Shown: positions 6,920 to 39,042 of the stretch, piece by piece
Numbering within the stretch: position 1 is the first letter of the stretch
Layout: every line of letters starts with the position of its first letter
NCBI GenBank assembly: GCA_022702545.1
Contig: JAHRBC010000007.1
Location: forward strand, 2,604,001-2,668,000
Source of the DNA: Phycomyces nitens
Lineage: Eukaryota; Mucoromycota; Mucoromycetes; Mucorales; Phycomycetaceae
Reading direction: 5' to 3'
Length of the DNA: 64,000 nt
Made by a program: the position numbers and the translations under genes
Notes under the pieces: generated by a model
Told to the model about the DNA's origin: nothing
Databases searched by the model: none
The model's input: only the letters and a program-made list of their open reading frames with translations

Positions 6920-7148
6920 CACTGGGAAAACGGTAAAAGTAGATCATGTGTAAAACTGTAAATAAATATGTGAAAAGTCGCGAATTTTCTATGGTAAAAC
7001 ACAGATATGACAGATAGGAGAACCTAGGTTCCTATCAGGTTGTAAGACTCGAAATAAACATGGTAAAAGTTGTGACAGCAAACGGAACAAAGGTTTGTTA
7101 GCATTTTTGACATGCTTAACTGACTTGATATACTCAATTGTTACATCC
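6920..7148 (-). mobile_element. Displaced right-end fragment of CACTA element B
   Basis: The fragment begins with CACTGGGAAAACGGT, identical over 15 bp to the left terminus of B at 15962. It has no gene. At 7148 it is cut by the R1 LTR, and its last five bases, CATCC, equal the reverse complement of the five bases at 30576-30580 that abut the other R1 LTR. If R1 is removed and the inversion undone, 7148 joins 30575 and this becomes the missing right end of B. The assignment is inferred from these two matches. Confidence 0.7.
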
Positions 7149-7436
7149 TGTCAGAAACCACCAATCGGATTCCTGAAACAATACAATCAGATTCATATCT
7201 ATATATTGCTCTCAAAGAATCAATATCATTAATGAAACATAACTATGTTTCATTCTGCAACAACACCAATCTCTTCTTAATTGTCTCAAACATAGCTTGA
7301 ACTAAAAAGTATATAAATGACCTTAGAGCTTGATCAATAGAAAGATCAAGTGAACAACATCTTTAATAAAGGAATCTTTCTATAACTCTCTGCCTGTTTC
7401 TCCTGTCCTATTCCTGGTATAGACAGGTTCCTGACA
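7149..7436 (+). repeat. 5' LTR of retrotransposon R1
   Basis: The 288-bp repeat runs from TGTCAGAAACC to GGTTCCTGACA, with TG...CA ends. A near-identical 288-bp copy lies in reverse orientation at 30581-30868. The five flanking bases 7144-7148 are CATCC. Confidence 0.9.
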
Positions 7437-7466
7437 GTTTGTTTGCTTCCTACAATTTTTCTTGCT

Positions 7467-8489
7467 ATGTTCTCCTCAAAGTTGTTTATTGCCCCTTCGG
7501 ACTCCTCGGATTCCTCTACCGTCGAATCAGCATCTGATGATAGAAGAGATGAGCCTACTACTAGCACCCTCTTGCGACAAATAGAAGCCATGCAACAAGA
7601 GATCCTAGCACTTCGATCCCAAAACATAAACAACACTCAGCCTCCCCCACCCACGATGAATGTCACCACACATTCGCACTACAAACCAAAGATGGCTGAT
7701 CCAGAAGCCTTCCAAGGCGACCGCCGTTTTGCTAGCGACTTCATACTCCAATTACAGTTGGTATTCATGTCGCAGCCTCAGCGTTATGCTATGGAAAGTG
7801 CCAAAGTATCTTTTGCTGCCTCCCGTCTTTGTGGTCCTGCTTTTTCCTGGTTTGCACCATACTTACGACAAAACAACCAAAGCATTCTGAATGATTTTGC
7901 TGCCTTTGTTCGAGAATTCAACATTGCTTTTGGTGATCCCGATGCCGCTGGAAATGCAGAACGCAAGCTCATGACCATAGCACAAGGCCAACGATCTGTT
8001 GCTGTCTTAGCTGGGGAATTCCGTCGAATCGCTGCCGATGTCTCCTGGAACGAATCTGCTCTGTGTGCAGCCTTTTACCAATCATTGAATGACGAAATAA
8101 AAGACGAGCTGTGCAAAGTTCCTCAAAGACCAGCAACCATGAATGAGCTTGTCAAGATTAGTACCAGAATTGACAACCGATTCCAAGAACGTCGTCTGGA
8201 AAGATCGAGAGGTCCCCGCCAATTTTCTTCCTCCTTGTTTCACCCTGTTAGCACCAATCAATTTCCGACTCCGTCAACTTCTTCCCCATCTAATGGTCCT
8301 GTTCCAATGGAAATCGATGCTGTCCGAGCCACTCTAAGAGGTCCTCTGACACAGACTGAAAAGGACCGTCGCCAAAACCAAGGACTTTGTCTCTATTGTG
8401 GCCAGCCTGGCCATATGGTTTGGCAATGCCCTGCCAAGTCTGGTGTCACAACCAGCATCAATGCCATTTCGGAACAGGGAAAAGAGTTT
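7467..8489 (+). CDS. Gag of R1, interrupted by element A (part 1)
   Basis: I choose the ATG at 7467, just inside the LTR, over the in-frame TTG at 7443. The product has a Ser/Asp-rich start, a helix with LLRQIEAMQQEILALR, then a retrotransposon Gag core (KMADPEAFQGDRRFASDFI, FSWFAPYLR, FNIAFGDPDAAGNAERKL). Near the end is one CCHC knuckle, CLYCGQPGHMVWQC. Gag binds and packages the element RNA. The frame is cut after GKEF by element A at 8490. It resumes after the TTT duplication at 14845 and reaches a TAA at 14860-14862, giving about 346 residues in total. Pol follows in a different frame, so a -1 shift would be needed. Confidence 0.85.
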
Positions 8490-8731
8490 CACTGGAAAAA
8501 CTCCCAAATTTAGCATTGTATCAATGTGGCAAAAGGGTAGTAGAAATATAGAGCTTTTTTTCATCTCAAATATTTTTTTTACTTCAAATAAAAAGTGTAA
8601 TTCTAATCCATCCTATTGGTTCGGGCAAAGGATTAAAAAACAATAGCTTTTTTTTCATCTATAAAATGACAGCAAATTAAAATATGTAGCACTTGTTTCC
8701 TTTTTTATCTCACAATCGAATCATATAAACA

Positions 8732-11700
8732 ATGTCTTCTATTTCCGCTCTTAACAACACTGCCTGTTACTGCAACAAATGCAACAACAACCAGCAAGGA
8801 TTCTCTATTGTATCCAAGCGCACTTCCCAGCGTCATGCCAAGAGAGCAAGATTTGAAGAAGTCTTGGATTTTGAAAACAGTATGTTATTTTCAATATTAA
8901 TTTTATCTTTGCTGCGCAATAATAACCATTAGCCTTTAATTGAACTCAAGCACACAAAGTGCCATGATGGACGTTGATGTTGAGGGTAAAAAATATTTAT
9001 TTGAACACCAGTACAGGGCAATAAACTAATGTATTCTATATTTGTAGCAATCCCGACCTCTCAATCCAAATCCATGGAAACGGATGGTCAGGTCAGCCTA
9101 CCATTTTTGGATTCTGTCCCGATGTCTGACAATGATTCAGTTGACAATGAGGTCAATGGCGATGATGCTGAAATCACCGATGACTCTGACAATGACAGTG
9201 ATGATGAACACAATGTTGAAGAGATCGAAGTCGAGGAGTTTGATAGTGAAGGTCAGTATTGAATAGCTACAATACAAAAACAAGCAAAGATTGAGTATTA
9301 ATAATTTTCATTTTTAAATAATAGACCCTTTTGCTACTCCTGGTATGCCCGAAAACCCAGTGCACAGGGCAATTGCCATTTTCATTGTTCTGTTTGCATC
9401 CCGTTATGTGGTCGATAAGGGTGCTGTTGTCTTGATTGAGTTCATCAACAAACTCTTGACGATTTACGGACAGGACTTCCAATTGCCTTCAAGCCTTTCT
9501 GGTCTCCAAAGCATGACAGGTTTCACTGCCTTGACCAAGGGTGTAAAGAGATTCGTTGTGTGCCAGGATTGCCACACGGTTTATGAGGAAGCTGGGTCTG
9601 CTCCCCTTCAGTGCAGTTCCGCCAAGCTCGGTTCCGTTTCTCCATGTGGTTGCCAATTGATGAAGCAATCATCATCTGGTGCTTTAGTCCCCAAACGTCA
9701 ATACAGCTACCAGTCCGTCAAGCAGGCGTTGAGAGTCCTTTTCCTCTGCCCGGATTTCGAAAGCAAGATCAGACAATGGAACCAGGAGTTGAAGATTGTT
9801 GATACCATGTGTGACGTTTACGATGGTGCAATGTGGAAGGGGTTGAAGGACAAGAACGGCGTTCCCTTTGTTGAAGACTCTCGATCACTCATGTTGACTC
9901 TCAACATTGATTGGTTTCAGCCATTCGATGGTATCAGTCATTCCTCTGGAGCCATTTACCTGGCGATCAACAATTTGCCTCGAGAGGATAGGTTCAAGGC
10001 AGAAAACGTGATTCTTGTTGGTCTGATGCCTGGGCCAAAGGAACCAAGATCAGAGGAGATTAACAACTACCTCAAGCCCTTGGTCAACGAGTTGGAGCAG
10101 CTGTATGTTGGAATGTCTATTCCAAGTTATGAACACCCCACTGGAGTAACTGTTCATGCTGCGCTCTTAATGGTTGCATGTGATATCCCTGCTGCCAGAA
10201 AAACCAGTGGATTCACGTCCCACAACAGTACGCATGCATGCTACAAATGCAGCCATAGTTTCTCTCACTTGGAAGGCACAAGCCATGTAGACTTTCGTGG
10301 GTTTGAGTTTGCCAAGTGGAGGCTTGCAAATGGTGCTGAAAACCGGGTGCATGCTGAGGAGTGGAAGAGTGCAAGTACGCCCTCAGAAAGGCATCAGCTG
10401 GAGGTTGAAAATGGTGTTCGATGGTTGCAGTTGCATTGCCTTGGATACTTTGATCTAGTATGTGGAACGATCATTGATCCCATGCACAACATATTCCTGG
10501 GAACGGCAAAGAGGATGGTCGAGACGTGGACTACCAGTGGTCTGATCACAGACAACAATCTTCGTGAGATGCAGATGGTAGCAGAGACCATGGTGTTGCC
10601 TGCAGATTACGCAGTGTTGAAGACAAAGATTGGGAAGGGATTTCCCCATATGAAGGCTGACGAGTGGAAATCCTGGGTGCTCGTTTACTCCCCTGCTCTG
10701 TTGAAGACTGTTCTCCCTGCTGCCAAGTTCCAAAATTGGATCAGCTTTGTCGACGCCTGCCGCCTCCTTACCAAGCCAACCATCACTTTTGACAAACTTG
10801 ATGAAGCCCATAGTCACCTGGAAAAATTTGGTCAAGCCTGCGAACAACAATACCCACACACTGTCCTCATCTGCAATATGCACCTACACCTCCATCTTCG
10901 CGAGACCATTCGTGATTTTGGACCAGTGTATGGCTATTGGCTCTTTGGGTTTGAGAGATACAATGGGTTGTTGAAGAACATTGAGACAAACAGAAGAGAC
11001 GGGTTCGAGTCAACGTTTATGAAAACATTTGTCCAGAATTCGTACAAGGAGGACTATACAAATGCCATCCTCAAGTCTTCGATATCAGCTCCTTTCCTCC
11101 CACTCATTGCCAAGCTCTCTTCGTCCTTTGCCACCTTGTCTCCACCCGCACCTGCACCTGCACCAACACGACGCCCATTCCGAATTCAAAATTTTGTGGA
11201 TGCATCCCAAGATTCCGAATTCCCGATCAAGGGTAATGAGCCTCTTCCACCCTCTGCGTTTCCTCTGTTGCAAAAGTCTGCCACAAAAATGAGTGATGTT
11301 GACTATCCTCAATTGTTGGCTTACTATGTGGATACGTATGACATTGACACCCTCCAGCATTATCAACATGCCACTTCTTCTTCGTTGTTTGTTGACAATC
11401 AGATCATAAAGCTAAAATCAATAAATCTCCTTGGCCAAGTATATCGTGGGCACAATGGCTCTGGAAATGGTGGATCTCGTGTCCAAGCTTTGTTTGGCAA
11501 CAGCACTGGTGAGAACCAGACCGCATATACTGGCGAAATACAGTATATTTTTGTCCACCAGTTCACGCCACCTCTCTCTGCCTCTGTTCATCTAAATTGT
11601 CGTGCTCATCAAAGCCAGCATGTTTTCGCCTTTGTCAGATGGTATGATGTGTCCTATGATCATTCGCGTGAGGATGAAGGTGTTGACATCTGTTTGCCCG

Positions 11701-11837
11701 GCTTTTCTCCTGCTACCCATGAGTGCATCTTGCCAGTCCATCGCCTTCTCTTGGAAGTTGCGACTGCCACGCACACAAGCCGAAATGGTATAAAGAGGAT
11801 GCTGGTCATCCCTTTGCCAAAGAAACTTTACATATAA
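8732..11837 (+). CDS. Tnp2/CACTA-like transposase of element A
   Basis: Four exons: 8732-8879, 8951-8985, 9048-9251 and 9325-11837. Exon 1 encodes CYCNKC...TSQRH, a cysteine-histidine motif likely to bind zinc. Exons 2-3 are acidic (DDSDNDSDDEHNVEEIEVEE). Exon 4 is 830 codons open from its first ATG at 9345. It holds a second cysteine cluster (CQDCHTVY, PCGC), then LTLNIDWFQPFDG, LVGLMPGPKEP, ACDIPAARKTSGFTSHNS followed by CYKC, IIDPMHNIFLGTAKRM, HLHLHLRETIRDFGPVYGYW and a C-terminal FAFVRWYD / PVHRLLLEVA block ending VIPLPKK. The aspartates in NIDWF, CDIPA and IIDPMH are candidates for the catalytic acids. It would cut and join the CACTG ends. With standard sites the first intron (8880-8950) does not close in phase, unlike copies B and C, so this copy may be slightly damaged or use another site. 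Confidence 0.85.
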
Positions 11838-11963
11838 TAAATAAATAAATATCTTTTCTCTTTCATAAAAAAAACAAACAGAAATAGCATTGCCTTTATA
11901 AATGTTGTCAAAACGTAACGCGTGTCAAAAAAAATAGATGGATAGATAAAAAAAAATATTTTA

Positions 11964-13146
11964 TTAAAGCCCATGTCTAAGAGCCCACTGAGGAAGACTG
12001 GGATTAAAATTAGTCGGGACTGCCACGTCCACAGTTCTGGCATAAACCCTTGACAACATTTGATGAGCATTTGCTCCAAGTTGGAGACCAACAAATCTGT
12101 CAACGACTTGGATGAATCGGCTAAACTATCAATTGCGCATCAGTAATCTACAGTCATTCAATATACTATTTATAATCAGCTCAACAACTCACTTCATTGC
12201 TTCTCCAACTTGGGCGAATTGTGCGAACCACACGTCTTCTTCCTGCTTCAGAGACTTTGTCATCTGATTCTCCCTCGGACATTGCTCCCTTTTGGAGTGC
12301 ACCTATGCAGTTCCAACCCATCTCCTGGTTGATCTCAGCCCTGTTATTGTCATATGCTGCCAAACGACGAGCATAGTTCTACAAATATTATTATTAATAT
12401 GCGTTTAATGGATTTTTAATATATTGCAAACAACTTACTTCGTTTGCACGACCAGATCTTCATGAAAGTCTGTTCAATGCAGCCCTCACAGCAGGAGACT
12501 CTCTCACTTTTCGGCATCTACTAATGAAATTCTTGTGGAGCCTCTCACAAAGATCCTTTTGCCTCATTCCGTCGCCAGCAAACTTACGCCCCAGGTAGAC
12601 GAGCATTCGATCAACCAACTCCTTGTTAGGAGTCACGTTGAAGTGAACATCGGTGTTCCACCTGGGCTTATCATTGTTGGCCTCTACTTCTGCTGGGACA
12701 GTTGACCGAAACTTTGGATTCCACATGAATTTGCGGATCGCAGCCTAATAATATATAAAAGTTAACAAACTGATAGTATAGTCTTTACTCTTTAGTATAA
12801 TACTTACATAGACCTCTGTGGAAACTCTCTTGCTGGGGTTTGACAAAGCAATGGGATCCGCCACAACAACATTGCTAGTTGCACTGGTGGAGGCAGCAGG
12901 AGCAACAGGAGCAGCAGGAGCAGCAGGAGCAGCCTCAACGAAATTATCAATGGCAGTGATAGTCTCACGGTTTCCTACAATAATGACACCAAGTCTGGAA
13001 TCCATCGTTACAAGTCTGGCGTTTGATGTCACCATCTCACTTTCCATAATGGTCATCTTGTTCTCCATGGCAACAAGCTTTTCCAATATCAGATCCATGT
13101 CAGCAGTAGCAGGACGAGGAGCAATCGATCTTCTTTGGTTAACCAT
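11964..13146 (-). pseudogene. Partner protein of element A (four exons, one TGA)
   Basis: Exons on the minus strand are 13146-12808, 12744-12439, 12378-12193 and 12125-11964. All introns are phase 0, giving 331 codons including the stop. Exon 1 carries a helical stretch (LILEKLVAMENKMTIMES) and an Ala/Pro-rich tail. Exon 2 has a compact domain (KPRWNTDVHFNVTPNKELVD, LVYLGRKF, QKDLCERLHKNF). Exon 3 has the family signature AMSEGESDDK plus RPSWRSNE. Exon 4 ends with LPQWALRHGL. An in-frame TGA at 12460-12462 interrupts exon 2; CGA is the likely earlier codon. The gene ends 127 bp from the transposase end, tail to tail. I do not recognise the family. By analogy with plant TnpA it could bind subterminal DNA, but nothing in the sequence proves this. 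Confidence 0.75.
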
Positions 13147-13378
13147 TTTCTAGAATATGGTAAAGTATATTTCGATTATAATTATTAGTTTTTGTTCAAT
13201 TGAAATAAAAATAAATATAATATACATACAAAAACTGTTTGGGTGAGTGAGTAAGTAAGTGTGTGTGTGTGTGGGTTGGTGTAAAGGTAAGAGAGGTTGA
13301 ATACTATCAAAAAGGTCTTTATATATAGGCATTTTGAATGACTATAAAGATGTTCATCCATTGTCTTGAAGCACTGAG

Positions 13379-14370
13379 ATGCAAATCGGCCTTGATATTG
13401 TTTTTGGGCTCAATCCATCACACCTTCCACAGCATGTTTCAAAGGTGAAAAAATTTTCAGACTCTCTCCTTTTTCTTTGGTTCCCTTTATTTTTCCTTTT
13501 GTTTGCTTTTTTAATATTGGCGCCTTTCTCTGGTAAGACATTTTTTATACCTCTTTATACACACAAATTAACCTCTTTTTCATAGATGTGCGCTCCCATT
13601 CCAACTCATCCTTTCCACAATGGCCATCTAGACAAATACTCACTGGCAGCATTCACTGGTCCCGTCATCATGATAAAAATTATTTTCACTTTCTCTCTTA
13701 GATTGGCCAAACAACTTATGTAAGGATGCCATCGGCACCAGGTAAATTTTTTCTTTCAATCATACTTGTTCCCTCTCTGACTCTATTCCATTGTAGACTG
13801 CCCTTTCTATTCATGCCATCGGCCTCCTCCATCATTCGTGATTGTAATCATAAAGGTAATATTCTTTATAAATCTCTTTTTACTTATCTAAAATATTATT
13901 CAGACTATTTATTAATAATTATTATTATGTGTTTTATAGGCTACTTTGGTCTTTCTTTGCACACCATGCCCCCTACTTTGATAACCCATTTGACTCCTGG
14001 TATGTAAATTAAATATATCATCACTCTGTTCACCCATATTAATTTTTATTCCCTTTTTTATAGTAAAACCTGCCACACAGCCCATCCAGCCTTACAATTC
14101 AAGTCCCCTTTGCCCACTCTTGCCCATCTCTTGCAATGTAAGTATCTTTTGTCACACAAAAATTTCCTCTTTGTACCCCACATCATTAACACTTCTTTAT
14201 CTTTTACAGAACACTCCCGCAGCCCAAAAAATCACTGGATATTCATATTTTTGCAGGTATTTTTTATGTAGAAAAATATTCCATCCAAATAGCAGCAAGC
14301 AACTGGGTAGAAACGGCTAGGCATAGGAATAGGCGTAATAATAGACCCTAAACCTAGAAACATTCTATTC
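13379..14370 (+). other. Right-arm splice-bracketed unit of element A
   Basis: A series of short segments each lie between an acceptor-like T-rich tract ending in AG and a donor-like GT: 13447 (GTGAAA), 13534 (GTAAGA), acceptor near 13584, GTAAAT at 13742, acceptor at 13796, GTAATA at 13857, acceptor at 13939, GTATGT at 14000, acceptor at 14063 and GTAAGT at 14140. A tail with TAATAAAAATAAA follows near 14380. Their lengths are not multiples of three and no frame runs through. It looks like a spliced transcript, possibly noncoding or decayed coding, on the transposase strand. The same 3' segment recurs in B and C. Confidence 0.5.
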
Positions 14371-14841
14371 TTTCTAATAAAAATAAAAACGCAAAACATT
14401 ACCAATCAATTATAAACGGGAAATCAAATAATGGGTGATATATTATTGGTGAAGAAGAATAAAGAAGCTTTCAATCCATTCATTTAATTGGCTTTCATGA
14501 AGAGTATGCTCAATATTTTTGACAAATACACGACCATGTATTTTCATGAATATATGATTCTCCCAATATTTCCAGGTCCAAAAATACGGCACCAAAATAG
14601 AACTGTACTTTTAAATATTTCTTTTTGTTTTTCCAGATCAGATCAGTACACCAAAAGTGCTAACAGCCCTCACCTGCGGCACATTATTTCAAAAATCCAC
14701 TACTAGATAGCACGTCAACGAGATAGCTGACAAGGTAGCTTGTCTCATAGTCGAAAAAAAAACCACCCTATGTTAAAACATTGCTTTATAGTACAGTATT
14801 GCCACTTTTACGTTATTGGAATTTCTTTATTTTTTGCAGTG
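14371..14841. other. Right terminal sequence of A, no gene seen
   Basis: AT-rich sequence between the right-arm unit and the right terminus. No coding signature found. Confidence 0.5.
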
Positions 14842-15961
14842 TTTGTCCAGATGTCCCAGTAAGGGTAGACACTCTGGACAATAATCGTCTACCTCTCCCA
14901 GACCCTCCAGACCCTTATCCACTACTAACCTCCTCCGAAAATCACCTTGTCCTTCCTGTCTCTCTGTCCTTTGGTGATACAAAAATTTGTACACAAGCCC
15001 TCGTTGATTCTGGTGCTCACAGCAGCTTTATTAGCAAAGAACTAGTTAAAAAATATAAAATCCCCACAAAAAATAAAGCTACTCCTTTGCCTGTTTATGT
15101 TGTTGATGGCCGAGAACTTGATGGTGGTGCTGTTACCAAGGAAACTGAAACCATTATGTTAGCAGTTGGTAAAATTCCGGAAAATGCCAACTTTCATGTT
15201 TTACCAATAACAACCTATCCCATAATTCTCGGAACCAGTTGGTGTGCTTGCCATGACCCAATTACATTATCCTGGAAACACAAAACTGTTTCTTTCCCCA
15301 GCACCTCTAAATCTCCTTCGCCTGTTTCTGTTTGTAAGACATCTGCTCCTGTTTTTGACTCCTACCACTTATCATCCGTCTCTGTATCCCCAGTCCGTGC
15401 ACCCAGTCATACCAAAGTTCCTGCTCCTGTTTCTGTTTCTTTTGCCTCTAGCTCCAATTCTGTTGTTCCTGTCCCAGTCCTCGATTCTGTTCCCCCTGCC
15501 TCTGTTTCTGTTATCCCTGTTCCTGATTCCATTGTCCCCATTCCTACTCCAGCTCCTATTGCCTCACTCACTGCCAAGGTGGAAATTCCAGAAAAATATG
15601 CTGACTTGTCATCAGTATTCAGCAAAGCTAAAGCTGACATATTACCAGAACATCGCAAGTATGACATGGAAATCCAGCTTACGGAAGGTGCCACACCACC
15701 ATGGGGGCCAATTTATAACCTGAGTGAACTGGAACTCAAAGCCCTACAAGAATATCTGGATGAAAACCTTGCCAAAGGATTTATTCGACACTCCAAGTCT
15801 CTTGCCGGTGCTCCTATTCTTTTTGTAAAAAAGAAAGACAATTCTCTCCGCCTCTGTGCCGACTACCGAGGTCTTAACAAGATTACCATCAAGAACCGCT
15901 ACCCGCTACCACTAATAAATGAGCTATTGGATAGATTGGGTAATGCCAAGGTGTTCACCAA
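14842..15961 (+). CDS. R1 pol: protease and N-terminal reverse transcriptase (part)
   Basis: After the TTT duplication the pol frame (codon start 14844, one base ahead of the gag frame) reads [14 protein letters not shown]. The aspartic protease follows ([17 protein letters not shown], with IILGTSW), then a Pro/Val/Ser-rich linker made of repeated PVPVSV-like words. The RT N-terminus comes next ([51 protein letters not shown]). The frame is cut after AKVFT at 15961 by the left end of element B, so YxDD, RNase H and integrase do not continue here. The missing 3' part of the element is found inverted at 30581-31062. The linker is low-complexity and unusually long for this region of Pol. Confidence 0.88.
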
Positions 15962-16203
15962 CACTGGGAAAACGGTCCTGAAGTACAATGATAAGAAGTA
16001 ACCTTTTAACCTATGCAAAACTGGAGTGATTTTGTATCTCAGAAAGTTTTTCATATTCAGGTTAAAGATAAAGCTTTACTCTATCTTATTGGCTTAGACA
16101 CAATAGACATATGAATATCAATTTGTAAGATTATAAAGTTGTTGAGAATAAAGTAAATGTAACACTTGTTTCCTTATTATCTTAATATTCAAAAGCATAC
16201 AAT

Positions 16204-18457
16204 ATGTCTTCTATTACTCAACTTTGCAACGAGGCCTGTTATTGCACTAAATGCAATGGTAACGCCCAAGGTTACAGTCTGGTAACAAAGAGAACCTCTC
16301 AGCGTCATAATAAGAGAGCAAGAATTGACGAACTTGAAAGAATTGTGATGGGTATGATGATTTTGGTATTGTTTTTTGGCCCTTGTATAATAACACGGTT
16401 TTTTATTAAACACAGAAAGACAAAGAGAAATGGTGGAGATTGATATTGAACGTAAGGAATATTTATTTGAAGAGCAGCAGATAGTAACAAGCTATTGTAT
16501 TCTATATGTAGCTATCACAACCCATCAATCCGGTTCTATGGAAAGACAGAATGATTTTTCCCACTCACCCGTCATGGAATCTGAGCTGATGCTGGATGGC
16601 GATGATTCAGCTGCCAATGAGGTGAATGGCAATGACAGCAACAATGAAGAGGAGAGCAATGCCGAAGACAGTGATGGTGACGACGTCGAGGAGATTGAAG
16701 TCGAGGATCTTAGCAGTGAAGGCGAGTGTTGAATAAAGAAAAAAGAACCTGAAAAAATTGAGTGTTAATAATTATCATTTTAAAATAGACCCCTTTTCCT
16801 CCCCGAGATGCCAGAGAATCCAGTGCACAGGTCCATTGCCATATTCGTGGTCCTGTTTGCATCCCGATACGTGGTCAACAAGGGTGCTGTTGTCTTGATC
16901 GAGTTCATCAACGAGCTCTTGAAGATCTACGAGCAGGATTTCCAATTGCCCTCTAGCCTTCCTGGTCTCCAAAAGATGACGGGTTTCTCAGCCTTGACCA
17001 AAGGAATAAAGAAATCTGTTGTGTGCCAGGATTGCCACAAGGTGTACGAGGAAGCTGGGTCTGTTCCTGAGTTCTGTAACTCATCCAAGGTTGGTTCCCG
17101 CTCTTCCTGTGGGTGCAAGTTGATGAAGGCGTCCTCTTCTGGTACTTTGGTTCCAAGACGCCAATTCCACTATCAGTCCGTCAAGCAGGCGTTGAGTGTC
17201 CTTTTCCTCCGCCCGGATTTTGAGGCCAATATCCGCCATTGGAACAAAGAGCTTAAGGTCATGGACACCATGTGCGATGTGTACGATGGTGCCATGTGGA
17301 AGGACCTGAAGGATAAGGATGGTGTCTCCTTTGTCGCTGACCCACGTTCATTGATGCTGACATTGAACATCGATTGGTTTCAGCCATTCGATGGGGTGAC
17401 TTATTCCTGTGGAGCAATCTACTTGGCAATAAACAATCTTCCTAGGGCTGAGCGGTTCAAGCCCGAGAATATCATCCTTGTTGGCCTGATGCCTGGGCCA
17501 AAGGAGCCAAAATCAGACGAGATAAACAGCTACCTGGAGCCGCTGGTCAATGACCTGAACCAGCTGTACGTTGGTGTTTCCATCCCAACGTTTGAGTGCC
17601 CTTTTTCTGTGGTTGTCCGTGCTGCCTTGATGATGGTTGCCTGCGACATCCCTGCTGCCAGGAAGACTAGTGGCTTCACAGCCCATAACAGCACTCGGGC
17701 ATGCTATAAGTGCAGTCGCAGTTTCTCCCGTCTGGAAGGCACGAGCCATGTGGACTTTCGTGGGTTCGAGTTTGTCAAGTGGAGGCTTGCCAATGGTGAA
17801 GAAAACCGGGTGCATGCTGAGGAGTGGAAGAGTGCAAGTACGCCCTCAGAAAGGCACCAGCTGGAGGTCGAAAATGGTGTTCGATGGTCGCAGCTGCACC
17901 GCCTTGGATACTTTGATCTAGTACGTGGAACGATCATTGATCCCATGCACAACCTATTCCTGGGTACGGCCAAGAGGATGGTCGAGACATGGACCGCCAG
18001 TGGTCTGATCACAGACCGGGATCTTTGTCAGATGCAAAAGGTGACAGAGACAATGGTGTTGCCTGTGGGATATACCATGTTGAAGACGAAGATCGGAAAG
18101 GGGTTTCCCCGAATGAAAGCCGACGAGTGGAAGTCCTGGGTGTTGATTTACTCTCCTGTTCTGCTGCGGCCTGTTCTTTCTGGAACAAAGTTCAAGAATT
18201 GGATCAGCTTTGTTGATGCCTGCCGTCTCCTCACCAAGCCTACCATCACTTTTGACGAACTTGATGAGGCCCATAGTCACCTGGAGAAGTTCGGTCGGGA
18301 GTGTGAACAACAATACCCTAGTACCATCCTCACCTGCAACATGCACCTACACCTCCATCTTCGCGACACTGTTCGTGATTTTGGACCAGTGTATGGTTAT
18401 TGGCTCTTTGGGTTCGAGCGATATAATGGGTTGTTGAAGAATGTTGATACAAACAGG
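16204..18457 (+). pseudogene. Transposase of element B, part 1 (split by C)
   Basis: Exons are 16204-16351 (148 nt), 16416-16451, 16512-16721 and 16789 onwards; all introns are phase 1 and the frame closes. The third intron has a GC donor (GCGAGT). Exon 1 holds CYCTKC...TSQRHNKRAR and exon 3 is acidic (NNEEESNAEDSDGDD). Exon 4 carries LTLNIDWFQPFDGVTYS, LVGLMPGPKEPKSDE, ACDIPAARKTSGFTAHNS, IIDPMHNLFLGTAKRM and HLHLHLRDTVRDFGPVYGYW. The frame is cut after VDTNR by the left end of C at 18458. After the AGG duplication the same frame resumes at 27042 (RDGFESTYIKSF). Apart from this insertion I see no stop, so B was probably coding until C arrived. Confidence 0.88.
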
Positions 18458-18699
18458 CACTGGGAAAACGGTGGGCTATTCTACTGTGCACAGTTAACTG
18501 AGAACGTGGAGAAAGCTGAAGCAAATTTGCAACTCAACACGTTTTTTTGTGATCACCTTGAAAATATTGTTTTATTGTATTTAATTGGCTCGGATATAAA
18601 GAACAGGAGATAATATTTTTATACTCTTATAAAACCGTAGCAAATAAAGCATATGTAACACTTGTTTCCTTTTTGTTTAAACTTCAATACACAAATACC

Positions 18700-21600: not shown

Positions 21601-21833
21601 ATCACAATAAGCAACATGTTTTCGCGTACGTTCGCTGGTTTGTCTTTGATTCCGAGCGTACAAGAGAACATGAAAGTGTTGACATTTGTAGGCCACAATT
21701 TTCTCCAGCCAACTACCACAGTATTGTGCCTGTACATCGCATTCTGTTAGAAGTAGCACTGGCTGAACATATGACCCAAAATAATGTAAAGAAGATACTG
21801 GTTATCCCTTTACCTAAAAAAATATATGCTTAA
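18700..21833 (+). pseudogene. Transposase of element C (one in-frame TAA)
   Basis: Exon 1 is 18700-18847 (148 nt, followed by a GCAAGT donor), exon 2 18901-18942, exon 3 ends at 19230 and exon 4 is 19294-21833. Exon 1 has CFCPRC...TAQRHAKRAR; exon 3 has a run of alternating Asp-Ala (DADADADADENE) encoded by a GATGCC repeat. Exon 4 carries LTLNVDWFQPFDGVTYS, LVGLMPGPKEPKSDE, ACDIPAARKTSGFTSHNS, IIDPMHNLFLGTAKRM and HLHLHTIIRDFGPVYGYW. A short tandem repeat near 21100-21170 encodes SYAPSHASS-like words. TAA at 21372-21374 replaces an expected serine codon; the same frame then continues to VIPLPKKIYA and the normal end at 21833. One base change therefore separates this copy from an open frame. 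Confidence 0.85.
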
Positions 21834-21978
21834 GTTTTAATAAAATATGTCTTTACTCATTTTTAAACAAGATTGCATACCAGAATAAAATAAACAAGTA
21901 TAGGATTTGAATGAGTCTTTAGGATTGAGTGCATGAGAGGAGCAAAGATGAGGTTTTTTTTATTTTTTTTAAATTTTT

Positions 21979-23129
21979 TTAATTTCTAACGGCCCATTCA
22001 GGCGGGGGAGGGACCATTCCCTCCGGGACTGCTACTTCGTCAATGCGGCCAAACTTTCGACGAAGCATCTGACGATGTCTTGTTCCCAAGCCGGCAAGCA
22101 CATAGTCATCGACGAGTTCAAGGAAATGATTGAACTAAAATATTCATTAGTATTCTATAAAAATAATAAACAATATTCTTTGCGAATTTATTTACCTCGT
22201 CGCTTCGCCAGCTTGGGCGCGCAGTGAGGATGCGACGCCCGAACGAAGCATCGCTCCCCTCATCGTCAGACTCACCCTCAGACATTGCTGCCTTTTGGAT
22301 GAGATTGCTGCAGTCCCGGTCCATTTCTTGGTCAATCGCCACCTTGTTATTGGAGTATGCCTCCCGGCGGCGAGTGAGATGCTGATGAAATATATGATTG
22401 TCAATTGAGTTAATAGGAATCCTTTTCATAATAAAAATAATAACTCACGTCCGCCTGACGGCCATTTCTTCTTGAGCGAGCATTCGCTTCTGCTCGCTTC
22501 TCAAAAGACTTCTTCTCCTGAGTCCGCCTTCCATTGAAGTTGGTGTATATATACCGGCGGAGGTCAGGGTACCTCAACCCAGACTCGAGAAACCTTGGCT
22601 GGAGATAGGCCATTATCTCGAGTACCAACTCTTTGTTGGGACTCTCGTTAAAGGCCACGTCCGTTCTCCAGCTAGGCTTTTGGTTGTTAGCCTCAACCAA
22701 GTCTGGGTTGTTGGACCTGAAGTTTTGGGTCTTCAGGTAGCGTCTGATGAAGCCCTAATATATTTTTAGAAGGTATTAGACTAGCAATATATTTCAATAG
22801 TATATACTCACATACGCGCGGTTGGTTTCCTGCATTTGAGGAGCTTCAAACGCAGCAAGTGCAACCACAGTGGGGGAGAGAGGAGCAGCAGCAACGGGGG
22901 CAGAAGAAGTTGCCCCAGGGACATTTCCAAAACCATCTAAGATGGCAATGGTACTGGCACCATCTTGGATGATAACACCAAGCCTGGTGTCCATAGTGGC
23001 TAGCCTGGTGCCAACAGAACGCACCTCTCCAGTCACATTGGACAAACCAGCCTCCACACTGGTCAATCTGTCCATCAACTCCCTGAACTCGTCGGTTGTT
23101 CGAGGAGCAATTGCACGTCTGTTTGCCAT
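21979..23129 (-). CDS. Partner protein of element C
   Basis: Four exons on the minus strand, phase 0, starting at 23129 (MANRRAIAPRTTDEFRELMD). Exon 1 (to 22812) has a helix-rich middle and an Ala/Pro/Val tail. Exon 2 (about 22755-22450) has KPSWRTDVAFNESPNKELVLE, MAYLQPRFLESGLRYPDLRR and an Arg-rich end. Exon 3 (about 22384-22195) has KAAMSEGESDDEGSD and LTARPSWRSDEV. Exon 4 starts FNHFLELVDDYVLAGLG and ends PPPPEWAVRN. I see no stop inside the exons. It converges on the transposase, with 146 bp between the two ends. Function unknown; possible DNA-binding accessory protein of the transposon. Confidence 0.75.
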
Positions 23130-23544
23130 AATCTACAAAATATCAAATAATAATTTTCAATTGTTAATTGTCTTTATTTCATGGGATCTCATATAAAATA
23201 TGTAATGTCTTATACATACAATTGATATTTGTTTTATTGAAAGGTTTTGGGAAGCAGAAGGGTGTGTTGTGTGTGAACAGGCCTTTGAGAATATAAAATA
23301 CAGAGTATTTATAAAAAAAGAGTTTGATGAGCGGATCCAAACACTTCTTGTACACACTAATGAATGGCTCCATTTGTTTTTAGATTCTATCCATTACACC
23401 TATTCTGTCTCTGTTTCAAATTATATATCCTTGTATTCTTTTCTTTTTTGCTCTTTTTTCCTTTCCCTCGTTTCCTATATCCGGGCCCATTTTTTCTTTC
23501 TTTTTTACACCTCTTTACACTAAAAAATCGGCAGCTTCTTTATA
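23130..23544. other. Upstream region of the C partner gene
   Basis: AT-rich sequence with pyrimidine tracts, between the partner start and the right-arm unit. It must hold the promoters of both, but I cannot point to a specific site. Confidence 0.4.
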
Positions 23545-25300
23545 AACATGCGCTCATTCCAATACATCGTGCCTGCATTGCTCATCCAAACAATCTGTGG
23601 TCAGTTGAATGTGCCTTTAGCATCTTGCAAATTATCCTGACTCTCTTTTTTTTTATTTTATAGACCTCCTCAACTCACACAGCTTTATTATATGGTTCAA
23701 TCATCAATATTGGGCTAAAAAAATCTTTTTGTGTCAAACGATTTTCTATTCTAACGTTGCTTATTTTATTGTAGACCACACCACCAATCACCCCATCTAC
23801 CTCTTCCTTCATGTACGATTGTAATCATAATGGTAATATCTTTTTTTGGTCTTTATATTTTTTATAATATTATTCTGATCCTCTCTTTTTATCTTATAGC
23901 CTTCCGCCACTCACACAGTCTATTATATTGGTATCGTCATCAGTGTCATGGTAAAAAAGAACCTTTTGGTGTCAAACTTTTTTCTCTAATGTTGTTTATT
24001 CTACTTGGGTCACCCCCATCACACCCTGTCCGTCTCTTCCATCATCTACAACTGGTTATCATAATGGTAATGCCATTTCTTGGTCTATACTTTTCTATAA
24101 TATTATTGTTATTCTCTCTTTTTATTTTATAGACATATTCCGTTCACACGCCTATTATATGGTATGGTCATCAGTGGCATGGTAAAAAATCGTGTCAAAT
24201 AATTTTCCCCTTTAACATTTCTTATTCTACTATAGACCGCCGCCATCAATCACCCCATCTGGCTCCCCCATCATCCTCAACTGTTATCATAATGGTAATG
24301 CTGTCTCTTAGTCTTTCTACTTTCCATAACACTATTCTGATTCTCTCTTTTTATATTATAGATCTCCTCTACTCAAACGGTCTATTATATGGTATCGTCA
24401 TTGGTGGCTTGGTAAAAAATATTTTCGTGTCAAACTATTTTATCCTCTAACGTTTCTTATTCTACTATAGACCGCCGCCATCAATCACCCCATCTGGCTT
24501 CCCCATCATCCTCAACTGTTATCATAACGGTAATGCTGTCTCTTAGTCTTTATACTTTCCATAACACTATTCTGATTCTCTCTTTTTATCTTATAGACCT
24601 CCTCTACTCAAACGGTCTATTATATGGTATCGTCATTGGTGGCTTGGTAAAAACTCTTCGTGTCAAACTATTTTCTCCTTTAACATTTCTTATTCTACTA
24701 TAGACCGCCGCCATCACTGTCCACCCCATCTGGCCCCTTCATCATCTACGACTGGTTATCATAATGGTAATGCCTTTTCTTGGTCTTTATCTCTTTCCAT
24801 AATATTATTCTGGCTATTTACTAATATTGTTCTATACTCTTAATAAGAATCTATTGTTGGTCATCACGTAACATCCCTCTACTTAATTGTCAACTCTGTT
24901 TCTGGTATGTAAATCGATTATTCTATTACCCAATTCACCCATACTAATTTACTTTACCCCATCTCTAGTCAATCTAATCATACAAGATGCCATGCCATGC
25001 CGCACAACTCAGCCCCACTTTGTCTGTTCTTATCCATCCCTTACAATGTAAGTATAAAATACCTCGCATCTTGAACAACACCCGCACTCTTGAATATATG
25101 TCACTAATATAACTTTTATTGTATTAGAATACTGCCGCAACCACCCAAATCGCCGTCGGTCCCTATTTTCAGGTATTGTTCAGTAGTGAAGCACCCGATC
25201 CAAGTAGTATCAAGTAGGCCGGTAGAAGCGGCAAGGATAAACAGTAATAGTATTAGAGCTTGTGTACAGAGCCATTCTATTCTTTCCAATAAACACAAAT
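23545..25300 (+). other. Right-arm splice-bracketed unit of element C
   Basis: A long run of short segments between acceptor-like (TTTTATAG, CTACTATAG) and donor-like (GTAATG, GTAAAA, GTATGT, GTAAGT) sites on the plus strand. The last segment, after the acceptor at about 25127, reads NTAATTQIAVGPYFQVLFSS and then a stop. A conserved TTCCAATAAACACAAATATAAACC-type tail follows, with AATAAA near 25290. Segments are 50, 58, 59 or 63 nt, so no single frame is kept. This could be a spliced noncoding RNA or a decayed gene. Confidence 0.5.
23664..24783 (+). repeat. Tandem array of a ~232-bp two-exon unit
   Basis: About 4.7 copies of a unit made of an exon-like 50-nt piece (ACCTCCTCTACTCAAACGG...), a donor GTAAAA, an intron-like spacer ending CTACTATAG, a 59-nt piece (ACCGCCGCCATCAATCACC...) and a donor GTAATG with a spacer ending CTTATAG. 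The 50-nt pieces start near 23664, 23901, 24133, 24361 and 24597. Splice-like borders are kept in most copies; one acceptor near 24000 is lost. B has a single unit at 29659-29830. Confidence 0.85.
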
Positions 25301-26621
25301 ATAAACCATAAACCTAATAAGTACGGGGTATAAAACAATGGGGGGGATCATTCTATGCTTGATTGCACAGTAATAGTATTCGATGATTGGTTAATTGCTT
25401 GAGGATATCCTTGATACCATGGAGAAAGCCAGCTTCTCCCCAACTTTATTTGCTGTGTGTAATCGTCTTTTCAATTTATAAACACATAATCTATTACACT
25501 AAAAACATAGTTTTAAGCACAAAAATCTGGTAAACACCAAAAATCTATATGCAGAAAAAGCTAACGAACCCTACACACCCAGGGAGTTTTGTTTCCTTTT
25601 ATAGTAAAAATGTCTCTCCCAGCCAATGATACAGCTCAAAATGGTGGATATTCAATTTGTTTCTTTTAAACCGGTGTTTTAAACATCAAAATGGTTTGTT
25701 TTTGGACATCTTTTTGCGATTTGTATGAAGCATTTGTTTTTGGACAGTTTGTGACCAATTTACAATACAATTTTTAACTGCAGACGTCTTTCCAGCAGGC
25801 CCTTTACTTATTTTTTATTTATTTTTTGTTCTTTTCTTTTCTTTCCCCTTCTCTAAAATTTTTCATGGTAAGTGATTTTTGCTTGACCCCTACTTTGTAA
25901 CAAATTATATAATAAAGCTTTCTTTTTGCACTCTGTTAAATAGACTACGTGAATCTACTTTATTTTGCTGTAAGATATTCAAGTTTTCACTGTGTTTAAC
26001 TAAAAACTAAATGAGTTTTTTCTTTTATAATAGGCATTTAGATTACAGTTTGAAATAGCAGTATCTCTTTCAATGCATCAGACACATGTATTGCCCATCC
26101 TCTTTGGTTAAGGTGTGTATAAGACTCGCATATATCTAGCAACAAACATAATAATAACGCGTTTTTAAAGAGCTGTTGTATAAAATATGAGACATAAAAT
26201 TAAGCGCTTTATCCTCCATATATTTTTGTTGATTATTAACTTTCATACTTCTTTTCTTAGATATAATCAACCATAAACAATAGACATAGTAAGGTAATAT
26301 GTGCATTATCATCTATCTATTCAAGCTTCACTTACTGATTAGCATTATTATTTAGGTTTGTATATACTATCTTGTCTAGACACTCTATCGAATACTGTGT
26401 GCCGCACTCTAGTCTTTTGGGTCAGGCTTATTTGACTCTGCATTCGCTCACACTGTCCTGAAAGAACTTCAAGTGGCTGGCAAGGTAGGATTCACTTATT
26501 CCATCATGTTATGAAAGAATGCCCTGCCTTAAAGCTTTAAGAATTTTACCCAATAAAAATCATTGGTAAACTTGTAACTTCTGCATTTTGGTTGGCAATT
26601 TGGATTTATTTGGAAAAAATA
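25301..26621. other. C right arm, no gene seen
   Basis: AT-rich sequence between the right-arm unit and the subterminal repeats. I find no open frame with a coding signature. Confidence 0.45.
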
Positions 26622-26880
26622 GCTCTCCCGATAATTACTATATTAAGGATATTCAAAAAATACAAGTTTTGAAAACCCGAAAATAATCCTCTTTTTGTGA
26701 AATTCTATCCAATGAGAGCTGTTATAAACCGTTTTATTAAGGCTTTATTTATGCATTGTTATTGGCTGTCGGGATTGAATAGGTGCAAAAAACTCTCCCG
26801 AAAATTACTATATATGGATGTCCAAAAAGAATTGCGCTTTTAAAACCCGAAATACTCCTTGGGTGTGTACTCTCCCAAAA
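26622..26880 (+). repeat. Subterminal repeats of element C
   Basis: Two direct repeats of about 62 bp start with CTCTCCCGATAATTACTATA at 26622 and CTCTCCCGAAAATTACTATA at 26793 and end with AAAACCCGAAAATA-like sequence. A third partial copy (CTCTCCCAAAAG) is near 26869. They lie 150-420 bp from the right terminus, where CACTA elements commonly carry binding sites for their own proteins. Confidence 0.7.
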
Positions 26881-27041
26881 GTTTTCAACTTTGCACCTGT
26901 ATGAGATTCGACTTTGAGCCCAGGAGAAACCTTGCTTACTCCCATACTCGTAGTATTCTGTTCTCCCCTGAAAACCTAAACTTTTCCCCTATTTATTTCT
27001 GGTTATATACATGGTTTTACCCCACAGTTTTTGCAGTAAGG

Positions 27042-27878
27042 AGAGATGGGTTTGAATCAACATACATAAAAAGTTTTACTGAAAATATGTATAAGGGTGA
27101 TCTTGTACAAAGACTTACATGTCAGAGCCAAGTCCCCTTCAAAGTACTATTGAAAAAACTCACCTCCTTGTCCAATACTTTTATAGTAGCCCCAGCCCCA
27201 GCACCAGCACCTCAACGCCATTTCCGTCTTGACGCATTCCTGCAAGCCTCATTGGATGTCAGTCTTACGATTAAGGGTAACGAAGCTCTCCCTCCGTCAG
27301 CATTACCTTTACCAACAGCAACAGCAACAACACAGATGGGTGATATCGACTATCCCCATCTCCTAGAATATTACAAGAGAGCATATGACAATGAGCACCT
27401 TGTTGACTACCTCCATGCATCTTCATCACCATTCTTTGTCAATGACCGAATCACAAAGATCAAGGCCATTGATCTTCTTGGTCAGACATACAAGGGCAAA
27501 GGTGGATCTGGCAGTTGCGGGTCATATATCCAAGCTCTTTTTCTGGATTTCGAGGGTAGAAAGACAAACGCGTACACAGGAGAAATCCAATACCTGTTCG
27601 CCCACAACTTCGTTCCTCCTCCCAGCCCCTCCAACAGCCGCCCTCATTTCCACCACAAGCAACATGTGTTTGCATTCGTCCACTGGCTTGTTCCAGATCC
27701 TGACAATCTCAGACCAGTTGAGCAAGTTGACGTCTGCCTCCCTGGTTTTGCGCCAAACACGTTCGACAGCATCTTGCCAGTGCACAGGATTCTCTTGGAA
27801 GTGGCTACGGCCGAATTAAAAATTGAAAACAACGCAAGGATGCTGGTCATTCCACTGCCAAAAAAAATATATGCATAA
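27042..27878 (+). pseudogene. Transposase of element B, part 2
   Basis: This continues the frame broken at 18457. It begins RDGFESTYIKSFTENMYKGD and runs through a Pro/Ala-rich linker (APAPAPAPQRHFRLD), IKGNEALPPSALPLP, IDLLGQTYKGKG, YTGEIQYLFAH, KQHVFAFVHW and PVHRILLEVA to MLVIPLPKKIYA and a TAA. This is the non-catalytic C-terminal third of the family. The open sequence reading into it from the left (from 26859) is terminal DNA of C and not part of the gene. Confidence 0.88.
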
Positions 27879-28015
27879 ATACAAATAAAACTTTTCTCTC
27901 TCTCTCTCTCCCTTTTAAAGAAGCAAAAAACAAAACAAAGCCAAGTAAAATATACATATAGTCCAAATAGCGCATATGTGAAACAGGGTGAAAATTAAGA
28001 GAAAAAGAAAACGTT

Positions 28016-29202
28016 TTATTGTCTCAGTGACCATTGAGGAAGGGAGGAAGAAAGCCCCTCAGGGACTGCTAAATCCGCAACGCGGCCAAATACTCTTGGG
28101 AGCATTTGGCGCACGTTGACACCCAAGCCAAGGAGCGAGTATGAGTCCAACAACTCAATCAACTGATTGAACTAATATACATTCATTAGAATATTATTTT
28201 ATGATTCAAAAGCAATAAAAAAATTTATTTAAATAATATGTTACCTCATCGCTCCTCCAGCCTGGGCGTACTGTGCGGATCATCCACCGGCCAGGAACTC
28301 CAGGAAACTCATCCTCAGACTCACCCTCAGACATTGCTGCCTTTTGGATGAGTGCTGAGCAATCATTGCCTATCGCATTGTCAATGGCATCCTTGTTGGA
28401 GAGGTATGCCATTCGACGGCGATGGAAATGCTAATCAAACATATGTTTAATATTGTTTTTCAATCTCAAGTCTTTTAGATGCTATACTATTACATACATC
28501 AGCTTCCCGGCCGGCTTTTCTGGCACGAGCATTTGCGGCTACCCGTGCCTCAGGAGACGCCCTCTCCTGGCGACGCCTTCCGCAAAAGTTCCGGTAGACA
28601 CTGTCCCGAAGATCCCTTTGGCGCAAGCCAGTGTTGATGAACGTTGGGCCCAGGTAGGCAAGGAGTTCAAGAACCAACTCCTTGTTGGGAGATTCATTGA
28701 AATGAACCTCCGTTCTCCACCTGGGCCTGTTGTTGTTGGCTTGCACCATAGCCGGGTTGTTTGACCTGAAATTGGGCCTCCACAGATAGTCTCGTATATG
28801 TCGCTATTAAATTTTTATAAGCCAATGAATTGGTAAGCTATTGAGAATATTAATACTTACAAACGCTTCTGTGGCGGCACCAGGGTTATACTCCACCACA
28901 GCCGGGATGATGGGAGCTGGGCCAGTGGCAGGGATGGCAACAGGACCAGGAGCAGGGCCAACAATGGTGAATAGCTCCTCACCAAAGGCAGAAGCAAGCT
29001 CGGCGGCAGGAACTGCACTGTTGTTGGCAGCCACCAACTCAGCCAAACTGTCAATAGCCTCGACAGTACTGGCGTTGCCTTTGATGCTGGTGCCAATGCG
29101 AGAATCTACCCTGACAAGGATGTTTTGAATATCCCGCAAGGTCTCCAACAATTGGAGTTGCTCATCGGTTGAGTGAGAAGTGGGAGTGGATCTTGGTGCC
29201 AT
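28016..29202 (-). CDS. Partner protein of element B
   Basis: Minus-strand gene of four exons starting at 29202 (MAPRSTPTSHSTDEQLQLLE). Exon 1 has a leucine-rich helix and an Ala/Pro/Val-rich tail (VGPAPGPVAIPATGPAP). Exon 2 (about 28807-28495) has RPRWRTEVHFNESPNKELVLE, LLAYLGPTFINTGLRQRDLR and an Arg/Ala-rich end. Exon 3 (about 28430-28247) has KAAMSEGESEDEFPG and RTVRPGWRSDEV. Exon 4 starts FNQLIELLDSYSLLGLG and ends LPQWSLRQ. No internal stop is visible. The gap to the transposase stop is 138 bp, as in the other copies. Unknown function; family as in A and C. Confidence 0.75.
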
Positions 29203-29518
29203 GGTCTATAGAATATCATATGTTTTCAAAATTAGCTTTATATTCTCTTTATAAATTATAGACTCTACTCTTTACATACAAAATACATGGTTTGCGAGTG
29301 CAGGAGGGTCGATTCAATTGTAAATAGATGGTCTTTATATACACAGATGAGTTTAATAAACAGATTCCTAATTACCCTTTGTATACTCTGTATAAATTAA
29401 TAAAAAAATAATTTTGGATCTCTGCTTGAAATTAAATATCATTTCTTTCTTTCTTTTTGTTCTATCTTCTTATCTCTGTTGTTTTATCTCTACGTGGGTT
29501 TCTAATAAGACATTCTTT
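29203..29518. other. Upstream region of the B partner gene
   Basis: AT-rich; no gene seen. Promoter sequence of the partner is expected here. Confidence 0.4.
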
Positions 29519-30370
29519 ATACTAACAAATTAATGGCTTCTTTATAAATGTATACTCATCCCAATACATTCTCTCTACATTGCCCATCTAGACTAATCAT
29601 GGTCAGTTACATGTGCCGGTGCCATCTTGCAAGTTATTCTGATTGTCTCTTTCTATCCTGTAGACCTCTTCCACTTGTACAGCCTATTATATGGTGCCAT
29701 CATCAGTGCCAGGGTAAATAAAATCTTTTCGTGTCCAATTTCTTTTTTCTCAACGTTTGTTATTCTACAATAGGCCGCCGCCATCACTGTCTACCCCATC
29801 TGCCTCCTTCATCATCTACAACTGGTTATCATAATGGTAATGCCGTTTCTTGGTCTTTGTGCTTTTCCCTAATATTATTCTGGCTATTTACTAATACTTT
29901 TCTATATTCTTAAAAAGTTATTGTTGGCCGCCATATACCATCCCTCTACTATAATTGCCAACTCTGTTTTTGGTATGTAAATCGATTTTTCTATCACTCA
30001 ATTCACCCATATTAATTTATTTTATCCCATCTCTAGTCAATCTAATCATACAAGATGCCATGCCGCACAACTCTGCCCCTCTTTGCCCATTCTTATCCAA
30101 TCCTTGCAATGTAAGTATAATATCCCTTGCATCTTGAATAGCACCTGCACTTTTGAATATATGTCACTAATATAACTTTTATTATATCAGAATACTACTG
30201 CAACCACCCAAATTGCTGCCGGACCCTATTTTCAGGTATTGTTCAGTAGAGAAGTATCCGATCCAAGTAATATCAAATAGGCTGGTAGAAGCGGCAAGGA
30301 TAGACAGTAATAGTATTAGAGCTTGTGTATAGAACCATTCTATTCTTTCCAATAAACACAAATATAAACC
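29519..30370 (+). other. Right-arm splice-bracketed unit of element B
   Basis: The shortest version of the unit seen in C. It has one 50-nt and one 63-nt exon-like piece, then pieces ending at GTATGT (29972) and GTAAGT (30112), and a last piece after an acceptor at 30190. This last piece reads NTTATTQIAAGPYFQVLFSR, close to C, with the same tail containing AATAAA near 30353. The high similarity of this 3' part to C suggests retained function or recent common origin. Confidence 0.5.
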
Positions 30371-30580
30371 ATAAACCTTTTAAGTACGGGGTATAAAATG
30401 ATGGAAAGAGTAATTATTGCTTGATTATACAATAATGAGTTTCAAAGAGTGGTCAATACTGGCAGTTTGAATGGGTAAACAATAATAAACCCTCACTATT
30501 AGCGTATGAAAAACAACAATAAGATCGCCCTTTCAAGATGTAAACACAATACCTGTACACCAAAAACATAATGTCGGATG

Positions 30581-30868
30581 TGTCAGGAACCTGTCTATAC
30601 CAGGAATAGGACAGGAGAAACAGGCAGAGAGTTATAGAAAGATTCCTTTATTAAAGATGTTGTTTGCTTGATCTTTCTATTGATCAAGCTCTAAGGTCAT
30701 TTATATACTTTTTAGTTCTAGCTATGTTTGAGACAATTAAGAAGAGATTGGTGTTGTTGCAGAATGAAACATAGTTATGTTTCATTAATGATATTGGTTC
30801 TTTGAGAGCAATATATAGATATGAATCTGATTGTATTGTTTCAGGAATCTGATTGGTGGTTTCTGACA
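30581..30868 (-). repeat. 3' LTR of retrotransposon R1, inverted
   Basis: The 288-bp reverse complement of the LTR at 7149-7436. A purine tract (GAGAGGAAGG, minus strand) lies next to its inner edge at about 30870-30885, as expected for the polypurine primer of a 3' LTR. The outer flank at 30576-30580 is GGATG, the reverse complement of the CATCC flank of the 5' LTR. Confidence 0.9.
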
Positions 30869-31062
30869 TTACCTTCCTCTCAAGGGTCTTGCTGTGGAAG
30901 TGCTTTGGGATGTTTCATAATCTTAGATTTTGGCTGTGGCGTTTTCCAGATTTTCCAAATGTTCCCAAGTTCTTTCTTCAGGGCCATAGCCTTTCCAATC
31001 TACTAAGTATTGTACCTTTCGATAGTGTAGGCGTTTGTCGAGTATCTCTTGTACTTCGTACT
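30869..31062 (-). pseudogene. R1 integrase C-terminus with chromodomain
   Basis: The minus-strand frame reads [20 protein letters not shown], then [20 protein letters not shown] and ends NATAKI with further residues toward the LTR. This is a typical chromodomain (aromatic Y/W positions and WEHLENL helix), as found at the C-terminus of chromovirus integrases, where it guides integration to chromatin. It is cut at 31062/31063 by the left end of E. RT, RNase H and the integrase core between here and 15961 are missing from the window. Confidence 0.85.
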
Positions 31063-32430: not shown

Positions 32431-32771
32431 ACGGCGATATTGAGTGTCCCGAATGTGACGTGGAACTAATAAGCCCACTTAATAAAACGATTTGTATTTT
32501 TGAAACAGAGCCCAAATATTACAAATGGATTAGTCAGTGCAAGCAAATTAAATGGATTAGCCAGTTGAAGCAGATTACTAAGTATACCTGACAGCATAAT
32601 GTAAGCAAAGATCAAAATACTATAAAACCTCTTTAGAAAGAAGTATACTTTTTAATTACTTTTAATTACTTTCTCATGTATGTATTATTTACGGAATATT
32701 TCAAAATCTATTGGAAAATAGATATTCATAATCAACGAACCTCACACTTTAATATATTTTTCTAGTATTCA
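32431..32771. other. Upstream region of the E partner gene
   Basis: AT-rich, no gene seen; 341 bp between the right-arm unit and the partner start. Confidence 0.4.
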
Positions 32772-39037: not shown

Positions 39038-39042
39038 CCATG

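Follow-up and report, generated by a model that had tools for sequence, protein, structure and literature searches.

We found that a single LTR retrotransposon, R1, inserted in a CACTA transposon of Phycomyces nitens, is split into two oppositely oriented halves, each broken exactly at the outermost base of a transposon. The 5′ part is capped by the left end of alpha, the transposon that carries R1, and the 3′ part by the left end of another element, gamma1. We consider it moderately likely that this arrangement arose by ordinary insertions of alpha and gamma copies into R1 followed by recombination between copies, and not by one unusual transposition.

The window, i.e., the whole stretch of 64,000 nucleotides that was analyzed (C9:2604001-2668000), lies within a 49-Mb genome of 11 contigs and contains no N. 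Fourteen of the 20 window open reading frames scanned with Pfam matched transposase, retrotransposon or PIF1-helicase families, and the other six had no match. The pieces follow one another in the order helicase gene copy 1, alpha right end, 5′ part of R1, alpha from its left end onward, 3′ part of R1, gamma1 left end, gamma1 right end and helicase gene copy 2 (Table 1). The elements alpha, beta, gamma and A belong to the CACTA/EnSpm group, with inverted termini that start with CACT and 3-bp target-site duplications (TSDs); a Transposase_21 (tnp2) gene (Pfam PF02992) is present in each of alpha, beta, gamma1 and A. They share this gene, the inverted CACTG termini and the 3-bp duplications with CACTA/EnSpm transposons at large and show nothing unusual in these respects.

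The initial annotation had already described R1 as split into oppositely oriented halves, and its coordinates (plus half ending at 15961, minus half at 31062-30581) hold to within a base or two. To that description we add element A, a CACTG element nested in the plus half of R1, beta within alpha (the element then called B) and gamma1 at the end of the minus half.

Table 1. Features of the rearranged locus, in window coordinates
Feature	Position	Strand	Basis
Helicase copy 1, flank of the alpha right end, last bases GCAAA	6080..6919	+	Pfam Pif1_2B_dom
Alpha right end, alpha positions 6258-6030	6920..7148	-	99.1-99.6% to two intact copies
CATCC, R1 target duplication, 5′ side	7144..7148	+	Flank comparison
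R1 5′ LTR, 288 bp	7149..7436	+	
R1 gag, broken off at 8489 by element A	7443..8489	+	Pfam Retrotrans_gag
Element A, CACTG element nested in R1; carries a Transposase_21 gene, TSD TTT	8490..14841	+	
R1 protease and first part of reverse transcriptase (RT), cut at ..TTCACCAA	14842..15961	+	RT by position; Pfam RT hit absent here
Alpha positions 1-2496, including left terminus	15962..18457	+	Match to intact copies
Beta, CACTG element within the alpha transposase gene, TSD AGG	18458..27038	+	
Alpha positions 2494/2495-6034	27039..30580	+	Match to intact copies
GGATG, R1 target duplication, 3′ side	30576..30580	+	
R1 3′ LTR	30581..30868	-	
R1 chromodomain end of pol	30869..31062	-	Pfam Chromo; 96.7% to the C5 R1 copy
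Gamma1, 7,075-bp CACTG element, both ends present, flanks ACT / AAG	31063..38137	+	
Helicase copy 2, crosses the alpha site without alpha	38138..38404	-	Family alignment

The alpha copy and the R1 insertion

Two intact alpha copies fetched from the genome measure 6,258 bp and have both 15-bp termini. The window pieces are 98.8 to 99.6% identical to them and pair as follows: 15962-18457 with alpha 1-2496/7, 27039-30581 with alpha 2494/5-6035, and 7148-6920 with alpha 6030-6258. The pieces overlap by the three bases AGG and the five bases GGATG, which are the target duplications of beta and R1; these elements interrupt alpha at 2494-2496 and 6030-6034, respectively, R1 lying in minus orientation. 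Window positions 15962-30580 and the reverse complement of 6920-7148 are a single alpha copy. Several proposals of the initial annotation were borne out here: the segment at 6920-7148 is the displaced right end of alpha, R1 was inserted in the right arm, since intact alpha runs through the insertion site, and the plus half of R1 stops exactly where the left terminus of alpha begins (CACTGGGAAAACGGT starts at 15962). The uninterrupted right arm that it proposed to search for was present in all 16 readable other copies, counted among 20 fetched loci after leaving out the window itself and three loci without the exact terminus string.

The exact terminus CACTGGGAAAACGGT occurs at 6920, 15962 and 18458, in each case on the plus strand; on the opposite strand, the window matches it only with 3 or 4 mismatches. 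These 15 bp occur 109 times in the genome and their reversed control not once, and the match is therefore not due to chance. At 30 fetched places, the letters beside the terminus were of two left-end types and one right-end type, and they identify 15962 as the alpha left end, 6920 as the alpha right end and 18458 as the beta left end. The left termini of alpha and beta are identical over the 15 bp although the two transposases share only 77% of their residues. At C1:492646-492885, a beta end likewise directly follows an alpha left end. The window alpha differs from two other copies by 0.64 and 0.96%, the divergence between those two being 1.05%. Alpha copies are roughly equidistant from one another. 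Among its named relatives, the alpha transposase scored highest against those in Mucor saturninus (78%) and Phycomyces blakesleeanus (59%).

R1 is a Ty3-type LTR retrotransposon with a chromodomain, and the end of its RT and its integrase region are absent from the window. Its recognizable features are gag, protease, a C-terminal chromodomain (Pfam Chromo, E 1.5e-12, in frame 30926-31210), LTRs of the form TG...CA and a 5-bp TSD. As annotated before, both LTRs represent one insertion: they abut the same alpha site and are bordered on the outside by CATCC and GGATG. Identical 5-bp flanks were found at five of five other R1 insertions examined (four single LTRs and a copy on C5). Two separate R1 insertions facing each other by chance were ruled out because the two LTRs share the CATCC duplication and the alpha site, which is uninterrupted in intact alpha. 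The alpha-R1 junction is found only once in the 49-Mb genome in a search allowing up to 3 mismatches.

The comparison of the two R1 LTRs, suggested in the initial annotation as a measure of age, gave 5 differences over 288 sites (1.7%), more than the window alpha differs from either of the two other copies. At sites 72 and 203, the 5′ LTR agrees with an unlinked solo LTR on C8 in states that are absent from the 3′ LTR; among the 8 LTRs compared, a third differing state, that of the 3′ LTR, recurs in a solo LTR on C4. The two states shared with the C8 LTR would hardly be expected from one insertion without conversion or exchange. As conversion or exchange may have touched these LTRs, we did not use their age for dating.

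Relative to the C5 copy, the left break of R1 lies directly after TTCACCAA and the right break directly before AGTACGAAG. That copy has continuous sequence without element A at the corresponding site, is continuous across both break points and carries a CACTG element of its own (TSD CTT). In its coordinates, this last element left aside, about 2.35 kb of R1 is lost between the breaks. The initial annotation had suggested looking for this RT-integrase piece next to a CACTG end elsewhere; genome-wide searches with its two edges gave 17 and 19 matches and did not reveal the displaced piece. Apart from the R1 end in the window itself, only two matches had at least 90% identity. Both were ruled out as the missing piece, the C5 copy being whole across both break points and C4:837270-839627 (92-93%) running across the left break; the latter match stops about 17 bp short of the right break.

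The gamma1 junction and the helicase gene copies

At the second breakpoint, the 3′ half of R1 adjoins the exact terminus of gamma1 and not the old flank of alpha. Gamma1 has both ends, with R1 on its left (ACT) and helicase gene copy 2 on its right (AAG). Dozens of places in the genome match its end stretches at 97-100% identity; the best 40 of 58 candidates for one end and of 68 for the other were scored, and all had at least 97% identity. The alpha and gamma transposases are 57% identical over 388 amino acids.

Helicase copy 1 has a Pif1_2B_dom in the open reading frame 6101-6922 on the minus strand. It has 35 genome matches including itself, the full-length ones at most 90% identical, and is 89-90% identical to all 11 aligned family members. 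For copy 2, identity is 98.1-99.6% with 7 of these members and 85-91% with the other 4. Judged by this alignment, copy 2 belongs to a different subfamily from copy 1 and has an empty alpha site. It is the only match in the window, beyond gamma1, to the helicase region flanking alpha; as the lost flank of alpha it was ruled out, since it spans the empty site and has the identity of the other subfamily. Search patterns for the old flanks were built from the flanks of other helicase copies, with 3 mismatches allowed, and genome-wide they detected neither an alpha nor a gamma left end beside its expected old flank. A 43-bp tandem repeat (5522-5889, about 8.6 copies) lies next to the helicase gene and is also found beside other helicase copies.

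Along gamma1, identity to other copies is uneven. Compared with gamma2, a second copy in the window, gamma1 has 4 to 37 differences per 500 bp (P 6e-12 for unevenness, the last 86 columns left out). Bit-score estimates against the copy at C4:2376184 put the differences at about 16 over the left 800 bp and about 3 over the right 800 (P 0.004); since this copy was chosen for having the best-matching right end, both the contrast and the P value are flattering. Counted on the letters, the left value was 15 in the first 800 columns. These patterns point to exchange within the gamma family, although they do not thereby prove that gamma1 is the hybrid of this particular event. The uneven identity, seen with more than one copy, may partly reflect constraint.

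Origin of the rearrangement

The target duplications distinguish the two broken sites from their neighbors. Six CACTG elements are delimited in the window; alpha (CAA/TTT) and gamma1 (ACT/AAG) have unmatched flanks, whereas all four others have matching TSDs (A, TTT; beta, AGG; gamma2, TTG; the element at 52158-58323, TTA). Read in the sense of R1, the junction triplets are CAA at alpha and AGT at gamma1. Outside the window, TSDs match in seven of eight alpha copies with both ends in hand, the eighth, on C7, being one base off (AAT and CAT). A ninth pair of alpha ends, 42 kb apart with an unmatched TSD, was set aside as probably two elements. In work on maize inversions, non-identical TSDs are given as the usual sign that elements have recombined, and matching ones as the sign of reversed-ends transposition (PMC8225341); the maize reversed-ends cases keep matching TSDs (PMC8225341, PMC9910405). 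As TSDs are unmatched at alpha and gamma1 and matched at the other delimited elements of the window, insertions followed by recombination between copies are favored.

One alpha copy would have inserted normally into R1 at CAA in the RT region, and one gamma copy at AGT, before the chromodomain. The host alpha and the oppositely oriented alpha borne by R1 would have exchanged, flipping the segment between them; alternatively, an alpha-R1 composite may have inserted into the R1 of a sister composite, which would give the same letters with no inversion. The gamma in R1 would have recombined with a gamma of the same orientation in helicase copy 2, and the resulting deletion would have removed the rest of R1, the old left flank of alpha and all sequence as far as helicase copy 2; gamma1 would then be a hybrid whose two flanks come from different places. 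We infer these steps; the exact junctions, the mismatched duplications and the missing R1 piece are read from the assembly.

The abundance of long, near-identical copies (37 other genome matches to the alpha right end, gamma ends with at least 97% identity) counts in favor of recombination, and the failure to find the missing R1 piece and the old flanks is as expected if they were deleted. Neither an intermediate, in which R1 would carry alpha at CAA or gamma at AGT, nor a reciprocal product or ancestral arrangement was found in this genome; of the latter two, a deletion would leave none. The sister-composite version is weakened because no second alpha-R1 composite is present in the assembly. 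The recombination account also requires several steps where a transposase model requires one, which counts against it.

Such a model is reversed-ends transposition, in which the facing left ends of alpha (15962) and gamma1 (31063) would have been cut together and have attacked R1 inside alpha, with loss of the DNA between them (the helicase flank of alpha and the flank of gamma) and inversion of the main part of alpha with the 3′ half of R1. It accounts exactly for the order and orientation of all pieces, for the two facing element ends at the breakpoints, for the precision of the R1 breaks and for the old flanks not being found beside the two left ends. We nevertheless regard it as unlikely: it predicts one shared 3-bp duplication, whereas the junctions read CAA and AGT, it predicts no loss of target, whereas 2.35 kb of R1 is gone, and it needs one transposase to act on the termini CACTGGGAAAACGGT and CACTGCAAAAGAAGG of families whose transposases have diverged to 57% identity. 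A pairing across families in which alpha and gamma ends were used together, each attacking its own R1 site 2.35 kb apart and turning alpha inside out, appears decidedly doubtful. If true, it would widen the range of rearrangements attributable to CACTA transposases. The initial annotation proposed that one CACTA end attacked the R1 RT and inverted the segment, by reversed-end or single-end transposition; in the single-end form, the left end of alpha alone would have attacked, the loose ends being rejoined. Its single R1 insertion in alpha, displaced alpha end and break at the alpha left end all stand, and the precise junction there suits the single-end form, but this mechanism is not supported: the 3′ half of R1 should then meet the old helicase flank of alpha, probably raggedly, and it meets the exact gamma1 terminus, the sole match to that helicase region found in the window being copy 2, beyond gamma1, with its other subfamily and empty site. 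Only a later arrival of gamma1 by further rearrangement would rescue this explanation, which we consider very improbable.

An assembly artefact, in which the gamma (7 kb) or alpha (6 kb) repeats would have bridged reads of different loci and so produced hybrid elements with unmatched duplications, also seems improbable. A misjoin within gamma1 would mimic recombination, given the dozens of places that its end stretches match. Against this, the 49 Mb are assembled in 11 contigs, the window contains no N, the four other CACTG elements of the same window keep intact TSDs, and the junction between the alpha left end and R1 does not lie within a repeat common to both sides.

Recombination between copies has a parallel in the Galileo inversion 2z3 of Drosophila buzzatii, where breakpoint elements likewise have unmatched, exchanged duplications and the inversion is read as recombination between oppositely oriented copies (PMC2775673). 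For 2z3, the uninverted chromosome is known along with both breakpoints, and the elements were shown to be chimeric; at the present locus, a deletion would have removed the second breakpoint, and uneven identity is seen in gamma alone. Products of reversed-ends transposition resemble this locus in having facing ends of two elements at the breakpoints, a lost spacer and an inverted segment, but the comparison case has matching 8-bp duplications, in contrast to CAA and AGT, the loss of target and the two element families seen here. Alternative transposition has been proposed for VANDAL21 elements (PMC12312487). The nesting of insertions makes the present locus a clean case, with the order of events readable to the base, and the locus illustrates how target duplications separate recombination between copies from aberrant transposition. 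Present evidence suggests that such an outcome is nothing out of the ordinary where a genome contains many young copies that are nearly identical.

Other repeats in the window

The right terminus of beta starts with TACTG, and at 23650-24812 this element contains a 235-bp unit repeated about five times, with related stretches in alpha at about 4967-5911. Gamma2 is inverted relative to gamma1 (47271-60519, TSD TTG) and its last bases are CAGCG instead of CAGTG; a 6.2-kb CACTG element (52158-58323, TSD TTA) is nested in it. A repeat with a CACTACGGCGG end occupies 38405-39042 and continues from 44332 on (the best 40 or so of 421 candidate places were scored); it is interrupted by an LTR retrotransposon with two identical 278-bp LTRs.
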